From a virus: a DNA stretch of 27,188 bases. The position numbers were made by a program, and so were the translations under genes. The stretch is from IMG/VR virus record IMGVR_UViG_3300028376_000028, positions 1 to 27,188 of that record; one strand, given 5' to 3'. Each line of letters starts with the position of its first letter. Positions within the stretch are counted from its first letter, which is position 1. Below are positions 14,806-26,300 of this stretch, in pieces. The notes under the pieces were generated by a model that was not told where the DNA came from, ran no database searches, and saw nothing but the letters and a program-made list of their open reading frames with translations.

Positions 14806-15874
14806 ATTGCTTCATTTCCAGCTCGATAGCATCGAGACGGGAACAACTGTTTTTGCGCATGATGCGCGAAATCGTATCTTCATACGACAGCTCTACGGGA
14901 GCCGTAGGCGGATCTCCCTGACGTCCCTGTTCTTGAGTGTTCAGACGTACTGAGGGACGGTTTTCCACAGCGTCGAGGCGCTCCGTAACGGGATCAATCA
15001 AAGCCTTGATAGCGGAAAGGGTCAAAGCCTCTTCCGGCTCTTCATGCGATGCTTCATGCGATGCTTCATGCGATGCGTCATGCGATGCTTCAACATCCGT
15101 AGCGTCCACGTCTTGGGCTTCTTCGACCTCTTCCGAAGTGGCTTCGACGCCTTCACCTTCGGATCCGTCTCCGTCGCTCTGTGATGCTTCAAGCGATGCG
15201 TCATCCGATGCTTCATCCGCATCTTCCGGCTCTTCTTTTGGGGCAAGAGCATCGAGACGATCGAGGATCGGTGAAACCGCCTCTTCGAACATTTTCATTA
15301 GTGCTTCAGGCTCCATATTCAGCTCCGCAAGTTCATTTGTGAGTTGCTGTGAAAGGGTAATTTCCAAGGTGTCTTGGATCGTGCCGATTCCCTTGAGAAA
15401 GGGGTCGGCTGTAAGGCTGACTTCACGGATCACGGGGCCAAAAGTGTCGCCCCCCTCCGTCTTGTATTTGGGGGTGATTCCCACCGATACGTGTTTTACT
15501 TTTCCGGCGTCGATCGCCATCAAGGTGTCGTCGGTCCATTCGAATTCACCCCAAAGCCCGTTGAACCCTTGTTTATCAGCGAGCTTGACCCCCAAAAGGT
15601 CGCCATCCCGATCATGACTAGGTTTGTGATTTCGGAGCACCGGGAACCGATACGGCTCACCGTTGGTTACTTCCGCTTTACCGTCGAAATACGCTTGCAA
15701 ACGGATGGATTCAGAGACGATCTTGCGTAGATACGCCTCGGAGAATTCTATCTCCTCCCCGTGGTAGTCGATCGTTTCCCCGAGGGGCACCAATTTGACC
15801 CAAGACCGGTTTCGTTTCCCGCTGTTCGGGTCGGTCGATAGGGCAAGGGTGTATTTGATCATTTGTTCACTCAT
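14804..15874 (-). CDS. Head maturation protease fused to scaffold (Mu gpI-like, 356 aa)
   Basis: A 356-aa protein starting at ATG 15874, overlapping the portal gene by 8 nt. Residues 1-165 look like a phage head serine protease of the Mu gpI/S78-related type: LRNHKPS with candidate catalytic His83, GLWGEFEW, then HVSVGITPKY with candidate nucleophile Ser130, and IREVSLTADPFLKGIGT. Residues 185-305 are a very acidic, helical scaffold-like region with predicted coiled coil (EALMKMFEEAVSPILDRLDALAP) and a run of Glu-Ala-Ser-His repeats (262-277). The tail of the protein is basic-acidic and probably helical. A protease-scaffold fusion cleaves itself and the coat during maturation. Confidence 0.85.
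   Translation of the reverse strand: MSEQMIKYTLALSTDPNSGKRNRSWVKLVPLGETIDYHGEEIEFSEAYLRKIVSESIRLQAYFDGKAEVTNGEPYRFPVLRNHKPSHDRDGDLLGVKLADKQGFNGLWGEFEWTDDTLMAIDAGKVKHVSVGITPKYKTEGGDTFGPVIREVSLTADPFLKGIGTIQDTLEITLSQQLTNELAELNMEPEALMKMFEEAVSPILDRLDALAPKEEPEDADEASDDASLEASQSDGDGSEGEGVEATSEEVEEAQDVDATDVEASHDASHEASHEASHEEPEEALTLSAIKALIDPVTERLDAVENRPSVRLNTQEQGRQGDPPTAPVELSYEDTISRIMRKNSCSRLDAIELEMKQ
15041..15092 (-). repeat. 12-bp tandem repeat encoding Glu-Ala-Ser-His units in the scaffold region
   Basis: About four near-identical copies of a 12-bp unit (GATGCTTCATGC on the plus strand, with one GCGTCATGC variant) encode ASHDASHEASHEASHE. A degenerate group of related units lies at 15183-15220 (EASDDASLEAS). 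The near identity at DNA level suggests recent slippage expansion in a flexible scaffold segment. Confidence 0.9.
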
Positions 15875-19620: not shown

Positions 19621-20016
19621 TTAGTCGTTTTCGTGGGTATCGTGGTCGTTGGTGGGATCTGGGAGGTTGAAGGTGTATTCGACGTCGCCGCTGTGCTCTA
19701 CGCGGTCAACATAGATCTTGTGAAACTTCGCCAGCAGCTCCAGAGCACGGACCTTATCGGAGGGTCTGACCCAGCCATCATCTTCACGTGCAAACGCCAG
19801 GTAAGTCAGCTCTGAAAGAACTTCGTTTGCACCGGCCCGCATCTCTTCGAGGCGCTCTTCAATAGCCTCAAGCACGGCGGGATGTTGCATGTTGTCTTTC
19901 GAAGAACTCTCGGGGTGCGCATAGTTAGCCAGCCGAGCCGCTTCAGTAGCGTTGAAACGTGCTTCGCCTACGTAAGCCTCTACAAAAGCGGGGAGTTTTC
20001 CGGTCAGCTTTGGCAT
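19621..20016 (-). CDS. terS: Terminase small subunit (TerS, Terminase_2-like, 131 aa)
   Basis: A 131-aa protein starting at ATG 20016 with GAGG 5 nt upstream. The sequence follows the Terminase_2 pattern: LTGKLPAFVEAYVGEARFNA, TEAARLANYAHPESSSKDN (helix-turn-helix), NMQHPAVLEAIEERLEEM, and a C-terminal KVRALELLAKFHKIY. It binds the packaging start site and regulates TerL. It is the first gene of the late structural operon, directly downstream of a terminator and a 32-bp promoter-like element. The acidic C-terminal tail ends ...DHDTHEND. Confidence 0.93.
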   Translation of the reverse strand: MPKLTGKLPAFVEAYVGEARFNATEAARLANYAHPESSSKDNMQHPAVLEAIEERLEEMRAGANEVLSELTYLAFAREDDGWVRPSDKVRALELLAKFHKIYVDRVEHSGDVEYTFNLPDPTNDHDTHEND

Positions 20017-20063: not shown

Positions 20064-20095
20064 CTATAGAGGTGGGTTACAAAAGGAATACCGAG
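20064..20095 (-). promoter_or_regulatory. 32-bp promoter-like element before the terminase operon
   Basis: The minus strand carries CTCGGT, then TCCTTTTGTAA, then CTCTATAG, in a 32-bp frame shared with two other sites (21723-21754 minus, 21987-22018 plus). It matches the 21723 copy at 23 of 32 positions with no gap. It lies between a strong terminator and the terS start, about 48 nt upstream of the ATG, so it is placed as a late promoter. The CTATAG end recalls single-subunit phage RNA polymerase promoters, but this is only a resemblance. Confidence 0.7.
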
Positions 20096-20103
20096 AGGGG
20101 ACG

Positions 20104-20147
20104 AAAAAACCCCCGATTAGGCGCAAAGGTATAAGCCTAATCGGGGG
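20104..20147 (-). terminator. Strong intrinsic terminator before the late operon
   Basis: A perfect 13-bp stem (CCCCCGATTAGGC with GCCTAATCGGGGG) with a 12-nt loop, followed on the minus strand by TTTTTT. It stops leftward transcription from the accessory genes just before the late promoter-like element and terS. Confidence 0.93.
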
Positions 20148-20197
20148 CGGAGTTGGTTCCCGGACAAGAGAACCACTAAAGGTGGGATATAAGTAAA

Positions 20198-20368
20198 TCA
20201 CCGGGTTTCGGACTTCTTGGCTGTTCGGTTGATCAGGGTACGGACCGTTTCGATGGGTAGCCGGATAGGGTCCCTTTCGTCGGGGAAACGGATTTCGACA
20301 TACCGCTCACGGGTGGCAGCATTCCAAGCCATGATCCAGCTAAAAGGGCGTTCGGGGATGTTAGGCAT
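20198..20368 (-). CDS. Small basic hypothetical protein (56 aa)
   Basis: A 56-aa frame starting at ATG 20368 with GGAG 7 nt upstream and ending about 50 nt before the strong terminator. The sequence (MPNIPERPFSWIMAWNAATR, then ERYVEIRFPDERDPIRLPIE, ending KKSETR) has a compact hydrophobic core with Trp residues and a beta-type centre, and looks like a real small phage protein. No family is recognised. It is the last gene of the accessory cluster. Confidence 0.75.
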   Translation of the reverse strand: MPNIPERPFSWIMAWNAATRERYVEIRFPDERDPIRLPIETVRTLINRTAKKSETR

Positions 20369-20422
20369 ACACAAGCTCCGATAACAGATATAGATTAGCT
20401 ACCAGAGCTTTTGATAGATGAA

Positions 20423-20536
20423 TCACCGGCTGCGCCACGTGTAACCGATCGTCGATTTAGACACCCCGAACTTTTCGCCGTCAGTGTGGCAGGCATCGTG
20501 TGAATCGGTGGGGGGTTTCCCTTCATTTAGAGCGGG
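20423..20536 (-). pseudogene. Open fragment with a helix-turn-helix-like segment, no start codon
   Basis: Directly after the TAA of the 126-aa gene and in the same frame, the sequence stays open for 37 codons and encodes HDACHTDGEKFGVSKSTIGY and TWRSR. The FGVSKSTI part is typical of a recognition helix-turn-helix. There is no ATG, GTG or TTG in frame before that motif. An ATG at 20528 is in another frame and could reach it only by a -1 slip on C CCC CCA. It could be a decayed DNA-binding protein, a readthrough tail of the 126-aa gene, or chance. Confidence 0.4.
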
Positions 20537-20917
20537 TTATGCGGGTACAGACAACGACCACCAATAGCCTTGCGGCTCGTCGTCCCGTTTGTGTTCTTCG
20601 CTTTTTTCGAGCCACACCTCGGCATCTTGCCAGATCAGCTCGGAGAGGGTGGTCGTATAGCTATTGACCAGCTTTTCGTGATCAACGGGGGTCTTGATCA
20701 TCTGATCAGGTTCGCAAGGAACGCGGACGAGGTAGGAAGCAGCCCCGGGGTTTTGCTTTTTCATATGGAGGTAATTCGCTTTGACGCTTGTCCAAGGACA
20801 GGCAAAGCGGGTGGATCTTATCCGAAATATACGGGGGTCAGGTAATATCCGGGGACGCCGGGGATCGGCTGGATCTAGCGAACGGCGTAAAACGAGGTAG
20901 GTGTATTCTTTGGGCAT
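20537..20917 (-). CDS. Hypothetical protein (126 aa)
   Basis: A 126-aa frame from ATG 20917 with only a weak GTGAG upstream. It is Pro/Arg-rich near the start (DPADPRRPRILPDPRIFRIR), has a central ASYLVRVPCEPDQMIK segment, and ends with a Trp-rich YWWSLSVPA. Codon-level appearance and a start close to the expected operon position make it likely coding. I do not recognise it. It belongs to the accessory cluster between origin and terminase. Confidence 0.65.
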   Translation of the reverse strand: MPKEYTYLVLRRSLDPADPRRPRILPDPRIFRIRSTRFACPWTSVKANYLHMKKQNPGAASYLVRVPCEPDQMIKTPVDHEKLVNSYTTTLSELIWQDAEVWLEKSEEHKRDDEPQGYWWSLSVPA

Positions 20918-21068
20918 TTAACTCACTTAACTTTTAGGCGAATAATTCACAGGATCAACGGAGCTGGATCAACGACCTAAAGGCACACCATCAACCGCAC
21001 CTGATCACAGAATGGCTCTCCGTGGATCTGACGGCTTCAGGCGATACATCTTGCGATTTATCACACAT

Positions 21069-21320
21069 CTAGTTCCATCCAACCGGCTGATAGGTCATCA
21101 ACACGGCTGATAGGCTGGTTTCAACCCACTGAGATGTTTCCAGCGCACCGTTTAACAGGCTGTGAAAATATCCGTCTGAAATGTCGGGGTCCGTGATCTG
21201 GTCATCCACGATATCCATCTGCCAGAGCCTATGCTCGATCTGAACCAAAGACGGATCAGGTTCCCAGCTCTGGGGGAAAGGGGCGTACTGGTCGATCGGG
21301 TCAAAGGGGTCGTCGGTCAT
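21069..21320 (-). CDS. Acidic hypothetical protein (83 aa)
   Basis: An 83-aa, strongly acidic protein (MTDDPFDPIDQYAPFPQSWE, then DIVDDQITDPDISDGYFHSL). Its ribosome binding site GAGGTG is the last unit of a tandem repeat that lies directly upstream (21322-21384). No family recognised. Its composition is like small phage-encoded inhibitor or DNA-mimic proteins, but this is composition only. Confidence 0.7.
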   Translation of the reverse strand: MTDDPFDPIDQYAPFPQSWEPDPSLVQIEHRLWQMDIVDDQITDPDISDGYFHSLLNGALETSQWVETSLSAVLMTYQPVGWN

Positions 21321-21321
21321 T

Positions 21322-21384
21322 TTCGCACCTCATGCGAGCACCTCATGCGAGCACCTCATGCGAGCAAGCTCATGCGAGCAAGCT
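21322..21384 (-). repeat. 13-14-bp tandem repeats spanning a gene end and the next ribosome binding site
   Basis: On the minus strand: two units GAGCTTGCTCGCAT, two units GAGGTGCTCGCAT, then GAGGTGCGAAA before the ATG. The first units encode the last residues and stop (SLLA, TGA) of the upstream 101-aa gene. The later ones carry repeated GAGGTG ribosome-binding-like sites and repeated ATGA start/stop overlaps. GAGC..GCTC makes each early unit a small palindrome. Confidence 0.88.
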
Positions 21385-21675
21385 CAAAACAAGATCCCAA
21401 GGGTAAGGCTCTTCAGTTCCATCCACGCAACGGCTGAGCGATCCCCTAAGCGTGCAGCCATGACTTTGTAGCCCCACGTTCCCCTGCCCTTCGAGCTTCC
21501 ACGTGACATCAAGCTCACGGATCCAGACGCCCCGTTCTAGGTCAAAGCTGGGGTCGTCTGGATCGAAGGTTGGTTCGTGGTTGGCTGGTACTTCGACGTG
21601 ATCCCCTTCAACTTCGGTAGGGTCTATGGAGTCAATGACGGCGGTTATGTCGATATCACGTAATATGGGGTTCAT
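21370..21675 (-). CDS. Acidic hypothetical protein (101 aa)
   Basis: A 101-aa protein starting at ATG 21675 with GGAG 7 nt upstream. It is acidic (TEVEGDHVEVPANHEPTFDP, then DDPSFDLERGVW) and contains ELDVTWKLEGQGN, a likely beta hairpin. Its last residues (SLLA) are encoded inside a tandem repeat, so the natural C-terminus may have been changed by repeat expansion. It is the first gene after the 21723-21754 promoter-like element. Family unknown. Confidence 0.72.
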   Translation of the reverse strand: MNPILRDIDITAVIDSIDPTEVEGDHVEVPANHEPTFDPDDPSFDLERGVWIRELDVTWKLEGQGNVGLQSHGCTLRGSLSRCVDGTEEPYPWDLVLSLLA

Positions 21676-21722
21676 GTGGAGGCTCCTTTGCTTTTCAAAA
21701 TCGGAGCAACCATTGCCCCGCT

Positions 21723-21754
21723 CTATAGAGACATTTCACAAACGGATAACCGAG
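21723..21754 (-). promoter_or_regulatory. 32-bp promoter-like element before the accessory operon
   Basis: A minus-strand copy of the shared element: CTCGGT, TATCCGTTTGTGAA, then CTCTATAG. It differs from the plus copy at 21987-22018 only at positions 5 and 7. It lies about 48 nt upstream of the 101-aa gene's ATG, the same distance as at terS, and downstream of the terminator at 21926-21959. Equal spacing to two different genes supports promoter function. Confidence 0.7.
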
Positions 21755-21925
21755 ATCGGGTGGGTATTTTCACACCCCAAATGGGTCGAGGTCTGCAAGC
21801 ATTTGACCCGGTGGTTTTGCAGGCATAAACGGGTGATCGGGATTCAACCATCGTGATGGAGTGGATTCTAGACAACTCCGGTGACACCAAGACTCAGCTC
21901 TCTAAGGGTTGGGAGTCTCACGAAT

Positions 21926-21959
21926 AAAAAGAGGGAGCCCGGTTAAAGGCTCCCTCTTT
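21926..21959. terminator. Bidirectional intrinsic terminator
   Basis: A perfect 12-bp stem (AAAGAGGGAGCC with GGCTCCCTCTTT) and an 8-nt loop. On the minus strand it is followed by TTTTTATT, on the plus strand the stem itself ends in TTT. It separates the two outward-facing promoter-like elements. Confidence 0.9.
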
Positions 21960-21986
21960 GCTTCAAATTGCGCTCAGTCACCCGGG

Positions 21987-22018
21987 CTCGCTGATCCGTT
22001 TGTGAAATGTCTCTATAG
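21987..22018 (+). promoter_or_regulatory. 32-bp promoter-like element pointing rightward
   Basis: A plus-strand copy of the shared element (CTCGCTGATCCGTTTGTG, then AAATGT, then CTCTATAG). It is the only copy facing against the genes. A transcript from it would begin just before the 19-bp-stem hairpin at 22031-22088 and run antisense to the zinc-ribbon gene at 22172-22516. Confidence 0.6.
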
Positions 22019-22030
22019 AGGTCAGCGTAC

Positions 22031-22088
22031 TCAGCGAGAACCTCCGGGTCTGTATCCGCATGACAGTGTACCCGGAGGTTCTCGCTGA
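22031..22088. other. Very stable hairpin (19-bp perfect stem)
   Basis: TCAGCGAGAACCTCCGGGT pairs perfectly with ACCCGGAGGTTCTCGCTGA around a 20-nt loop in which CTGT and ACAG can pair again. There is no U-tract on either side, so it is not a standard intrinsic terminator. It lies about 13 bp downstream of the rightward promoter-like element and about 85 bp past the stop of the zinc-ribbon gene. An RNA hairpin, a protein-bound cruciform, or a single-strand origin-type element are all possible. Confidence 0.85.
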
Positions 22089-22171
22089 CGTCTAGCTCTA
22101 CCTTTGCCGGATTTCTACAAAACTATCTTTCTACACGTCGTCGAGCGCCTGAGACGGAAAGGGGAGGGGGT

Positions 22172-22516
22172 CTACCTGCATCCATCGCACTTCTCGCCCC
22201 GGATGGCAGACGGTCCACCGCACTCCGGGCAACCCAGCGAAGCCGAAGCCGAAGCGTTACGACCGTGGTACTTAGGGGGAGCCGCCTTGTGCACAGCCAA
22301 ATCGCGCATCGTCTCGTCTAGATCGCGATAGGCTGCTTTAAGCTCGTCGACATGGTCGTACTGGTACAGTGCGCGCACCGAAAAGCGCGACCATGAGTCC
22401 GCGAAGCGCTCCAACACTTTGTGGGGGATTATTTCGCCTTGCGCGTGTGCCAATATGAGGTCGTTGACCGTCTTGAAATCGTCGCTTTCTTCGTCGTGTC
22501 GGCGTCGCTGGCTCAT
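22172..22516 (-). CDS. Small protein with C-terminal CPxC zinc ribbon (114 aa)
   Basis: A 114-aa protein starting at ATG 22516 with GGAGAC upstream. The N-terminus is basic then acidic (MSQRRRHDEESDD), the middle is helical (ELKAAYRDLDETMRDLAV), and the end carries CPECGG and CDGC (Cys96, Cys99, Cys110, Cys113), a four-cysteine zinc-ribbon arrangement. Such small phage proteins often bind nucleic acids or host RNA polymerase. It lies between the origin-like region and the late genes and could be a regulator; this is inferred. Confidence 0.8.
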   Translation of the reverse strand: MSQRRRHDEESDDFKTVNDLILAHAQGEIIPHKVLERFADSWSRFSVRALYQYDHVDELKAAYRDLDETMRDLAVHKAAPPKYHGRNASASASLGCPECGGPSAIRGEKCDGCR

Positions 22517-22852: not shown

Positions 22853-22944
22853 TGTTCTGAGAGGTGAATGAGTAACTGAGTAACTGTGATTGCACTGGGT
22901 ATCCCAGCAGACAACTGAACAAGTGTCAAGTGCCTTGTGGTTGC

Positions 22945-23264
22945 TGTTACAGGTGTGTTACGTCAAAAAGCGGGGTTGTTACAGACCTTGTAACAGCAAA
23001 TCCCCTAGCATTTACAAGGGGTTAAGCCTTGCTGTTACAAATGTTACAGATTCTGGGGGTAGTAAAAGAATATACTGTAAGAGGGGGTGTGTCCGTGGTT
23101 GGTTACGGCTGAGAGTTTATTATTTATTATATCTATTATTCTTGTAACATTTGTAACACCCCCCCTAAAATCGCCGTTTGGTAACGCCCACGGGCCGATT
23201 TTTGCTGTTACAAATGCTGTTACAAACCCGATCCGACTTGTAACAATTGTAACGATCTGTAACA
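22945..23264. repeat. Iteron-like array: 13 copies of TGTTACA / TGTAACA
   Basis: Forward units (TGTTACA) begin at 22945, 22956 (ending G), 22977, 23033, 23042, 23206 and 23218; inverse units (TGTAACA) begin at 22989, 23143, 23152, 23239, 23248 (ending G) and 23258. Many neighbours are spaced 9-12 bp, close to one helical turn. The array adjoins the end of the primase-helicase gene and surrounds an AT-rich stretch. Iterons next to a helicase-primase gene are the layout of phage and plasmid origins. Confidence 0.85.
23115..23140. other. AT-rich stretch inside the iteron array (possible unwinding element)
   Basis: Twenty-six bp with only one G and one C (GTTTATTATTTATTATATCT, then ATTATT), in contrast to GC-rich surroundings. 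It lies 2 bp before a pair of inverse iteron units. A DNA unwinding element is the natural reading. Confidence 0.6.
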
Positions 23265-23296
23265 AAAAGGCCGGACCCAACAAAAAGGCCGGACCC
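23261..23296 (-). repeat. Exact 18-bp tandem duplication of a terminator arm
   Basis: AACAAAAAGGCCGGACCC occurs twice in direct tandem. On the minus strand each copy gives GGGTCCGGCC followed by TTTTTGTT, that is the 3' arm plus U-tract of the terminator below. Confidence 0.92.
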
Positions 23297-23336: not shown

Positions 23337-26300
23337 TTAGTCGTCGATATCAACCATCAACGAATCCAAATCCGGCAAAGGTTGAGCGTCCCCTTCTTCG
23401 ACGTCCACTTGATGTAGATAGACCGTGTACCACCGTTGCAATGAACCCCCGACTCTCCAAGCCTTATCGGGTCTGGCAACAAGGCCTTGGTCAGCCAGCC
23501 AATCAAAAAGCTGGGACGCTGTACAGCCCGCTCCCTTGGTCACACCGGAAGCGTCCAGCATAGAGGGGGTCGTATATAGTCCGTCACGTCTGGTTTTCCC
23601 GTCTTCCGATACACCGGCAAAACGAACCCCAAACGCCTCGTGTGCTCGGTCGTAGTCTGTTTCAACGGGGAATCTCGCCGGTTGGGCCGCAGCCATGTTT
23701 TGCAACACGGACCAAGCCCTAGCCTCGGGGGTCGTAACATCTCCCCTACTTCCGATGATTCGCTCTTTCACCACTTCAACCGCATATTCGACAAAGCTGC
23801 GGTTCCCATATTCCTCTTTCGTCTCAGCCCACGATTCCGGCAAGATCCCCACAAAATCAGCGAGCGCCAGAGCGGTATATACGATAGCTACCTGCTCCAT
23901 GATCCGGACGTTTTCGCCGTTTTCGATTCCGCTGATCAGGATATCTTGCGATTTGCGATGAAACGCCCGAACCCCGTCGAGGTTCGGCTGGTTAATCATC
24001 CATTGAATGAACGTCCTTCCGGCTACACCGTAGTTTTGCTGAAAACGCTCCCGGATCGCTTCGGCATGGTCCCGATCGATAGTGACCTCGCCCCGTTCGA
24101 TCGGCACATCAAGCATACGAACCGTCAGACCACCTTGAACGTGATCCGCGCCGATCCAATCAGTGATGGTGTTCTCACCGGTTGAAAGCGCTGTACAGGA
24201 CCATGAGCGCGTTTGTACGACCTCCGTACCCGACCGGTTAGACCGCCGCCGCCCTTCACCGTCAGCAAAGGAATAGACGAATTTCCGAACGTGGCGGGGG
24301 TCACATTCCTGCAGCTCGTCGAGAATCATACACGCACCACTGTAATCTTGCGCAGCGATTTCGTGCCCGTTCTTGGTGCCGTCCCAGCTTTTGATCAAGG
24401 ACCGGGGGTTGCCCCAGACCGACGAAGCGGCATAAAGCGAGCGGCTTTTCCCGCTGGAACTCGCCCCCGCCAGATGGACACCAAACGGATCCCGATCCAA
24501 AACGTGAAGTAGCGGACCCGCCAGCGACACACCTAACGCAAAGGCTAGGTACGGCGTCGTGACCGTCTCTTCAACGGCGTCTTTCCAGTCGTCGAGGGTT
24601 CCCTTTTCCTGCCCTCTCAGAGCCGTGTGTGCGCCCTCGGCGTACCAATCAGCCCCCATCACCTGTGTACCGTTGACGTAGACCGCCTGACCGTCGTCAT
24701 CGTGCCACCCACTACGCCGAACGACCGTGGATTCCTTGACGTCCCGCGCTTCAGAGTACCATTCACCCAACATTTCGCAGAAATCCCCACCACATCGCGG
24801 TTGAATTTGAACGCCGGCTTTAGCGGCAGCACCGGCTGCGTTTTTGGCCGCCGTCGAATCGACCCACGCATCTGCTTCAAGTGTCCCGTACCGTACCCGG
24901 CCCTTTCGATCATGATAACGGTACCGAACCCCGTAATCCCCGGACCCCTGAACCCGTACTATCGACAGAGGCCAGACCTCTCGAGCTATGGTTGCCGTCT
25001 CGTCGTGAAACCACTTCCCCGCATCTGAATCATACGCCCACTTTTCCTTTTTACAGATGAAACCGATTTGCCACCGGGTCGAGCTAGCATACGGGGGACC
25101 GTCGCCGAGGCGAACGTCCCGCGTTTCCGTCTGTTCGTGGAAGTCAACATAAGCGTCCTTGTCCGTTTGCAGGATCACAACGGCGTTATCCGACCCTTCC
25201 TTGTTACAGCCGGCCAGACGCTTCAACCGCTGGAGCTGTCGCATGGATTCATCCCGTTTCAGAGCGCCTAGCTCTCCCTCCGGGATATCACCGGCCTCGG
25301 CCCACTGATCAACTACCTGTTGGATCGCGGCGTCAATCAGCTCGTGACGTTGTTCGAATTCATCCTCGGTACTAGCTCGCTGATCGTCCGTACATTTGAA
25401 CGAAACGTGCATCTTTGCCCGATCTTCGTCGGTCGGGTCAGGCGTGGTCATTTCGACAGCGCACGCCGGTAGCCCTCGTTTGCCCAGAGTCCTGACGATA
25501 CGGTTAACCAGCGAGATCAAGGGCTTTCTATCGTCGGACCCGTCAAAATCGACCACATACAGATGACCACCATAGCCACCATGCAGCCCCTCTTTCGCCG
25601 CGCTCTTTGTCCAGCCTCCCCACATACGGTTAACCGGTGCGTCAAGAGGCGCACCTTCGACCCGATTTTCCTCTTTTTTCGGCTTGGTCAAGATGCGATC
25701 ACCGAGCCAGATGCCTCCCGGCACGATGCAAATAGCATCGACGTAATACGCCAGCGATACCCGGTCCCACTCTAGGTCTGCCGCTTCGCAATATTGCCGG
25801 AGTTGGTCCATAACCTCATCCGGGGCCGACCCGTTTACCAGTGCCGCTAGTTCGGCACGTCGCGTGAGTTGCGGAGGCTTGTTTTGCGCTTCCATACGCA
25901 GCCGTCTTGCCCGTGCGATCCGGCTAGATAGCTGCCGCTGCGGCTCGTAGTTCGTCCACATGTCGTACTGTTCGGCAATCCAGTCAGCCGCAGCCCGCTT
26001 TTCCTCTTTGGTCAACTCACCGGCGTCATATTTCCCGGCTTGCCATTGTGCGACAAGCTCGATGGGTCCGCCGCCGATCCCCGTTTTATGGTGAACATAA
26101 AGATTCTTTCCGCTGGCAAACTGGATTTTTGCCGTGTCCGTGTGCAGTTCGTGGGGAAACGAATGCCGCCCCTGACCGTGGTCGTATACGCCTATATCAG
26201 CGGCTACGAGCTGGATATCCAGCTCGGCCCGAATCCGGTCGTAATCCACCTGACGGCGGTACGTGCCGCCTCCGGTCCAAGGGATGATATCCCCATGATC

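Follow-up and report, generated by a model that had tools for sequence, protein, structure and literature searches.

The stretch of DNA analysed here (the window, 27,188 bases) is the entire virus record IMGVR_UViG_3300028376_000028, which comes from environmental DNA and represents a small tailed phage. The record is classed as linear, no repeats were found at its ends, and it is probably a fragment, i.e. an incomplete genome. The minus strand carries every plausible gene. On the left side are genes for the small terminase subunit (terS, a Terminase_2 protein), the large terminase subunit (terL), a Mu-like portal, a head protease (in whose gene 12-bp repeats at 15021–15239 encode an acidic/His repeat), the major head protein, the tape measure protein and the tail; on the right side are a DUF927 primase/helicase gene, the sole replication gene seen in the window, and a number of small genes. 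The closest annotated terminases among phage records are about 30 % identical, and no DNA match to phages was obtained with megablast. When the primase/helicase was used as query against viral contigs no contig was found, and an Rfam search returned nothing at E≤1.

Three copies of a 32-bp element

As had been claimed in a preliminary description of this DNA, the window contains three gap-free copies of a 32-bp element, designated A (CTCGGTATTCCTTTTGTAACCCACCTCTATAG, 20064–20095, minus strand), B (CTCGGTTATCCGTTTGTGAAATGTCTCTATAG, 21723–21754, minus strand) and C (CTCGCTGATCCGTTTGTGAAATGTCTCTATAG, 21987–22018, plus strand), which match one motif and have the blocks CTCG, TCC, TTTGTRA and CTCTATAG in common. 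A weight matrix scored the copies at 53, 52 and 45 bits and the next-best site in the record at 7.6 bits; as the matrix was built from the same three copies, its informative part is the gap to the next site only, and a fourth copy is absent from the 27-kb record. Copies B and C agree at 30 of 32 positions, a level at which about 2e-7 pairs are expected by chance, so that chance is excluded as the source of their similarity. Copy A agrees with B at 23/32 and with C at 22/32 positions. At the A–B level (at least 23/32) the window as a whole should hold about 25 pairs by chance, and one of 300 shuffled sequences gave A a best match of 23; the similarity of A and B by itself is not beyond chance. 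It is because of its position and its conservation, and not because of this similarity alone, that A stands above chance.

Copies A and B are both intergenic and their last G lies exactly 48 nt ahead of an ATG (20064 to 20016 and 21723 to 21675, respectively), in agreement with the earlier claim of about 48 nt for two of the copies, and GAGG or AAGGAG is found just upstream of the two start codons. The first gene past A is terS (19621–20016, minus strand; Terminase_2/phrog_51), and A is the proposed promoter of a terS–terL–portal–head–tail operon. The first gene past B encodes a 101-aa protein of no recognized family (21370–21675, minus strand; ribosome site AAGGAG), and B is the proposed promoter of an operon of four small genes without recognized function (21675–20198). 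Four near-identical tandem repeats of 13–14 bp (GCACCTCATGCGA) lie at 21325–21380, between two small genes. A and B thus form an intergenic motif that recurs at a set distance ahead of operons, with C as the exception.

It had also been claimed that every copy follows an intrinsic terminator, and this is cleanly the case for A, directly upstream of which a stem followed by six T residues (20102–20145, minus strand; −20.6 kcal mol−1, z −4.0) ends about 8 nt ahead of CTCG. It does not apply to B. The nearest minus-strand terminator, a stem and T-run at 21928–21959 that lies between B and C and ends the upstream minus-strand operon, has a stem that stops 173 nt short of the element, and the DNA immediately ahead of B holds no significant hairpin (z −0.9 versus shuffles). 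Copy C is preceded on the plus strand by this same stem, the T-run of which serves the minus strand, so that for C the claim is true only loosely.

B and C form the two arms of one 42-bp inverted repeat (21721–21762, minus strand, and 21979–22020, plus strand; 90 % complementary, 216 bp apart), a relation that was absent from the preliminary description. A plasmid search with the B/C region as query was empty. We considered and rejected an invertible promoter: either arm is the element itself, so flipping of the middle would change nothing.

Copy C is the least explained part of this arrangement. No convincing plus-strand gene was found behind it; instead, a stem–loop with a perfect 19-bp stem and a 20-nt loop (22031–22088, plus strand; arms 22031–22049 and 22070–22088) begins 12 nt downstream of the final G of C, in a non-coding stretch. 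This stem–loop has no T-run on either strand, and an 11-codon ATG frame begins in its loop. The predicted transcript 22013–22160 folds at −58 kcal mol−1 (z −4.4). Judging from the sequence, C may yield a short structured non-coding RNA, and transcription from it may run antisense into a 114-aa gene (22172–22516) toward the repeat-rich gap at 22940–23265; equally, C may have arisen as an inverted duplicate of B and be inert. The 3′ end of the primase/helicase gene (23368–23387) recurs in inverted orientation beside the hairpin, as a 20-bp match of 95 % at 22095–22114. The repeat-rich gap itself, of low GC content and adjoining the DUF927 primase/helicase gene, contains 11 of the window's 12 occurrences of TGTAACA, on both strands (TTGTAACA seven times), and is a candidate iteron origin. 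Kinship between the element and these iteron-like repeats was rejected, for although TTTGTAAC of copy A occurs four times among them it is absent from B and C.

Conservation of the element in relatives

A search with TerL identified one relative that covers A, a 4.2-kb contig (L001) with a TerL about 93 % identical; B and C are covered by none. In L001 the element is present ahead of terS with changes at 2 of 32 positions, each of which falls within or beside the variable stretch −12 to −7. Homology between L001 and the window starts at the terminator, the stem of which is kept save for a 3-nt length difference ahead of the T-run, and the identity runs on to CTATAGCGGC, after which the leader is rearranged or diverged (57 versus 47 nt) up to the ATG. 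The preceding 305 bases of L001 (1–305) are unrelated to the window, giving a sharp exchange boundary at the shared terminator. At fourfold-degenerate sites L001 and the window differ by 22 % in terL and by 36 % in terS. Taken alone, two changes in 32 bp have a probability of 0.017 at the lower (22 %) rate; for terminator and element as a single block we infer, rather than compute, that neutral persistence is much less likely.

Conservation of the element ahead of the same operon was found in L001 alone. The element is absent from the more distant L025 and L026 (portal 59 % identical) and L002 (terL 59 % identical), and no copy lies inside the portal-to-tail operon of an 18.4-kb relative (L024/L027). 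Searches of IMG/VR and 84,980 prokaryote genomes with the exact pattern and at full length gave no copy elsewhere except that of L001 in IMG/VR. The relaxed motif TTTGTRAn6TCTATAGMG matched 33 contigs, nearly all of them within long open frames and unrelated, and a search that paired the left half with a different right half matched, apart from L001, nothing but unrelated or coding places. An intergenic CTCGGTTTTTGTGATACGCTTCTATAGCGG between two terminators in a contig resembling Pontimonas phage phiPsal1 (L059, 8985–9020) is present as a single copy, and was set aside as chance or at most a lead; the examined part of phiPsal1 itself holds no copy of the motif.

A proposed phage-specific promoter and its possible readers

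We consider the best explanation of A and B, with a probability of roughly 0.55, to be that they are phage-specific promoters of the middle or late class. This reading is favoured because the three copies score far above the next-best site, because each of A and B is followed at 48 nt by an ATG that has a ribosome site, because L001 keeps terminator and element while its leader is rearranged and its upstream DNA is unrelated, and because no copy lies inside the structural operon of L024/L027. Against it stand the lack of a gene for C to drive, the A–B similarity, which alone is within chance, the coverage of A by one relative and of B and C by none, and the fact that no activator or sigma gene was recognized in the window. 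We hypothesize that A starts the packaging–head–tail operon and B the operon of four small genes, both on the minus strand. At A, the strong terminator and the promoter would together form a conserved insulating cassette, in which incoming transcription would stop and then resume on a schedule set by the phage. Melting and initiation would take place in TCTATAG, at the 3′ side of the element, and recognition would fall to the asymmetric CTCGGTnnTCCkTTTGTRA at its 5′ side, where the bound protein would most likely be an activator or sigma-like factor of the phage that guides the host RNA polymerase.

Like host sigma-70 promoters, the element has a TATAG spaced from the start codon as in a promoter, but it differs from them in its bipartite match: in a scan with the E. 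coli pattern, from which the consensus of the host may differ, the copies reached at best 7/12, which is the random median. With the same pattern, no good −35 hexamer was found at the copies 15–19 nt from TATAGM, and a promoter scan of the window gave no entry at any of them.

It had been suggested that the end of the element resembles promoters of single-subunit phage RNA polymerases, and we weighed the alternative that a T7-like polymerase, its gene located in the part of the genome that the record lacks, reads the element as its promoter and starts transcription at the G of CTATAG. The promoters of T7, T3 and SP6 have CACTATAG in common at −7 to +1 (PMC13029058), which is matched at 7 of 8 positions by CTCTATAG in A, B and C and at 6 of 8 by ATCTATAG in L001. 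The element is also, like the late promoters of these phages, a short asymmetric intergenic repeat ahead of operons with CNCTATAG at −7 to +1; conservation in L001 stops just past +1, and the sigma-70 pattern (E. coli consensus) is absent. Nevertheless, the likeness does not extend upstream. Over −17 to +1 the copies match T7-type promoters at only 10–11 of 18 positions, with 8 to 42 other sites in the window scoring higher, and at −17 to −8 no likeness above background was seen; members of this promoter type such as those of KP34 and Syn5 differ widely. T7-type promoters reach no further upstream than −17, whereas the conserved blocks of the element extend to −31. CNCTATAG was also found within genes (at 2862, 4821 and 6801). 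The statement of the preliminary description that the window encodes no single-subunit polymerase was borne out, a search for PF00940 being empty with a positive T7 control, and the related contigs searched were likewise without a match; the only replication gene seen is the DUF927 primase/helicase. On this evidence, which comes from a probably incomplete record, we regard a T7-like polymerase as an unlikely reader. The part of the original proposal that finds support is the phage-specific promoter, for which the pre-operon position, the equal 48-nt leaders, the conservation in L001 and the lack of full-length copies elsewhere all speak; its T7-type part is not supported.

We infer that the element is more probably read by the host polymerase under redirection by a phage factor, because DUF927 is the only replication gene visible and because a relative (L026, portal 59 % identical) carries, as recognized by eye, Cro/CI-like and excisionase-like genes, a lifestyle that as a rule goes with use of the host polymerase. 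Promoters of the Mu Mor/C, P2 Ogr and phi29 p4 types are activator-dependent middle or late promoters read by host polymerase. The element resembles them in having phage-specific blocks in place of a −35 hexamer and in lying ahead of late operons, but no dyad or half-site of these factors was recognized in it and, unlike the activator-dependent type, its TATAGM lacks a T at the last position of the −10 hexamer. From its sequence, the 114-aa gene at 22172–22516 is a candidate for the phage factor: its product, for which no family or solved-structure match was found, ends in a zinc-ribbon-like CPECGGPSAIRGEKCDGC.

Rather unlikely, in our view, is that the element is a DNA-binding site and not a promoter, i.e. 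an operator or a recognition site for replication or packaging, the B/C pair binding a dimer or forming a cruciform. The 42-bp inverted repeat of B and C with its palindromic CTCTATAGAG end would suit such a role, as would the absence of a gene on C's own strand and the position of A beside terS, where packaging sites are frequent. The conserved part is asymmetric, however, A and L001 ending in the non-palindromic CTCTATAGCG or ATCTATAGCG, and A and B share both their orientation and their 48-nt distance from a gene. That B and C are a mere local inverted duplication and A a coincidental look-alike is very improbable: such a duplication would account for B–C, and some 25 window pairs are expected at 23/32, but the start-codon register (48 and 48 nt), the intergenic place and the conservation of A in L001 speak against it.

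Returning to A and B as middle or late promoters, it is plausible that they are a fresh instance of a familiar and fairly ordinary type of phage gene switch. A more far-reaching version, which we consider quite improbable, would be a new promoter class, in which CTCGGTnnTCCkTTTGTRAn6TCTATAG is read in the small tailed phages of this group by a factor or polymerase of its own, and in which a short, very stable hairpin RNA made from C on the opposite strand regulates the phage or primes replication toward the iteron-like 22940–23265. Copy C, if transcribed, would represent a phage non-coding RNA. Should A and B prove to be promoters, they would mark the middle or late transcription class in a group of phages among which no isolate was found, and would predict a new phage transcription factor or polymerase, the gene for which would travel with the motif. 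The unit of terminator and promoter, kept while the upstream gene was exchanged, would clearly exemplify an insulated late-operon module.
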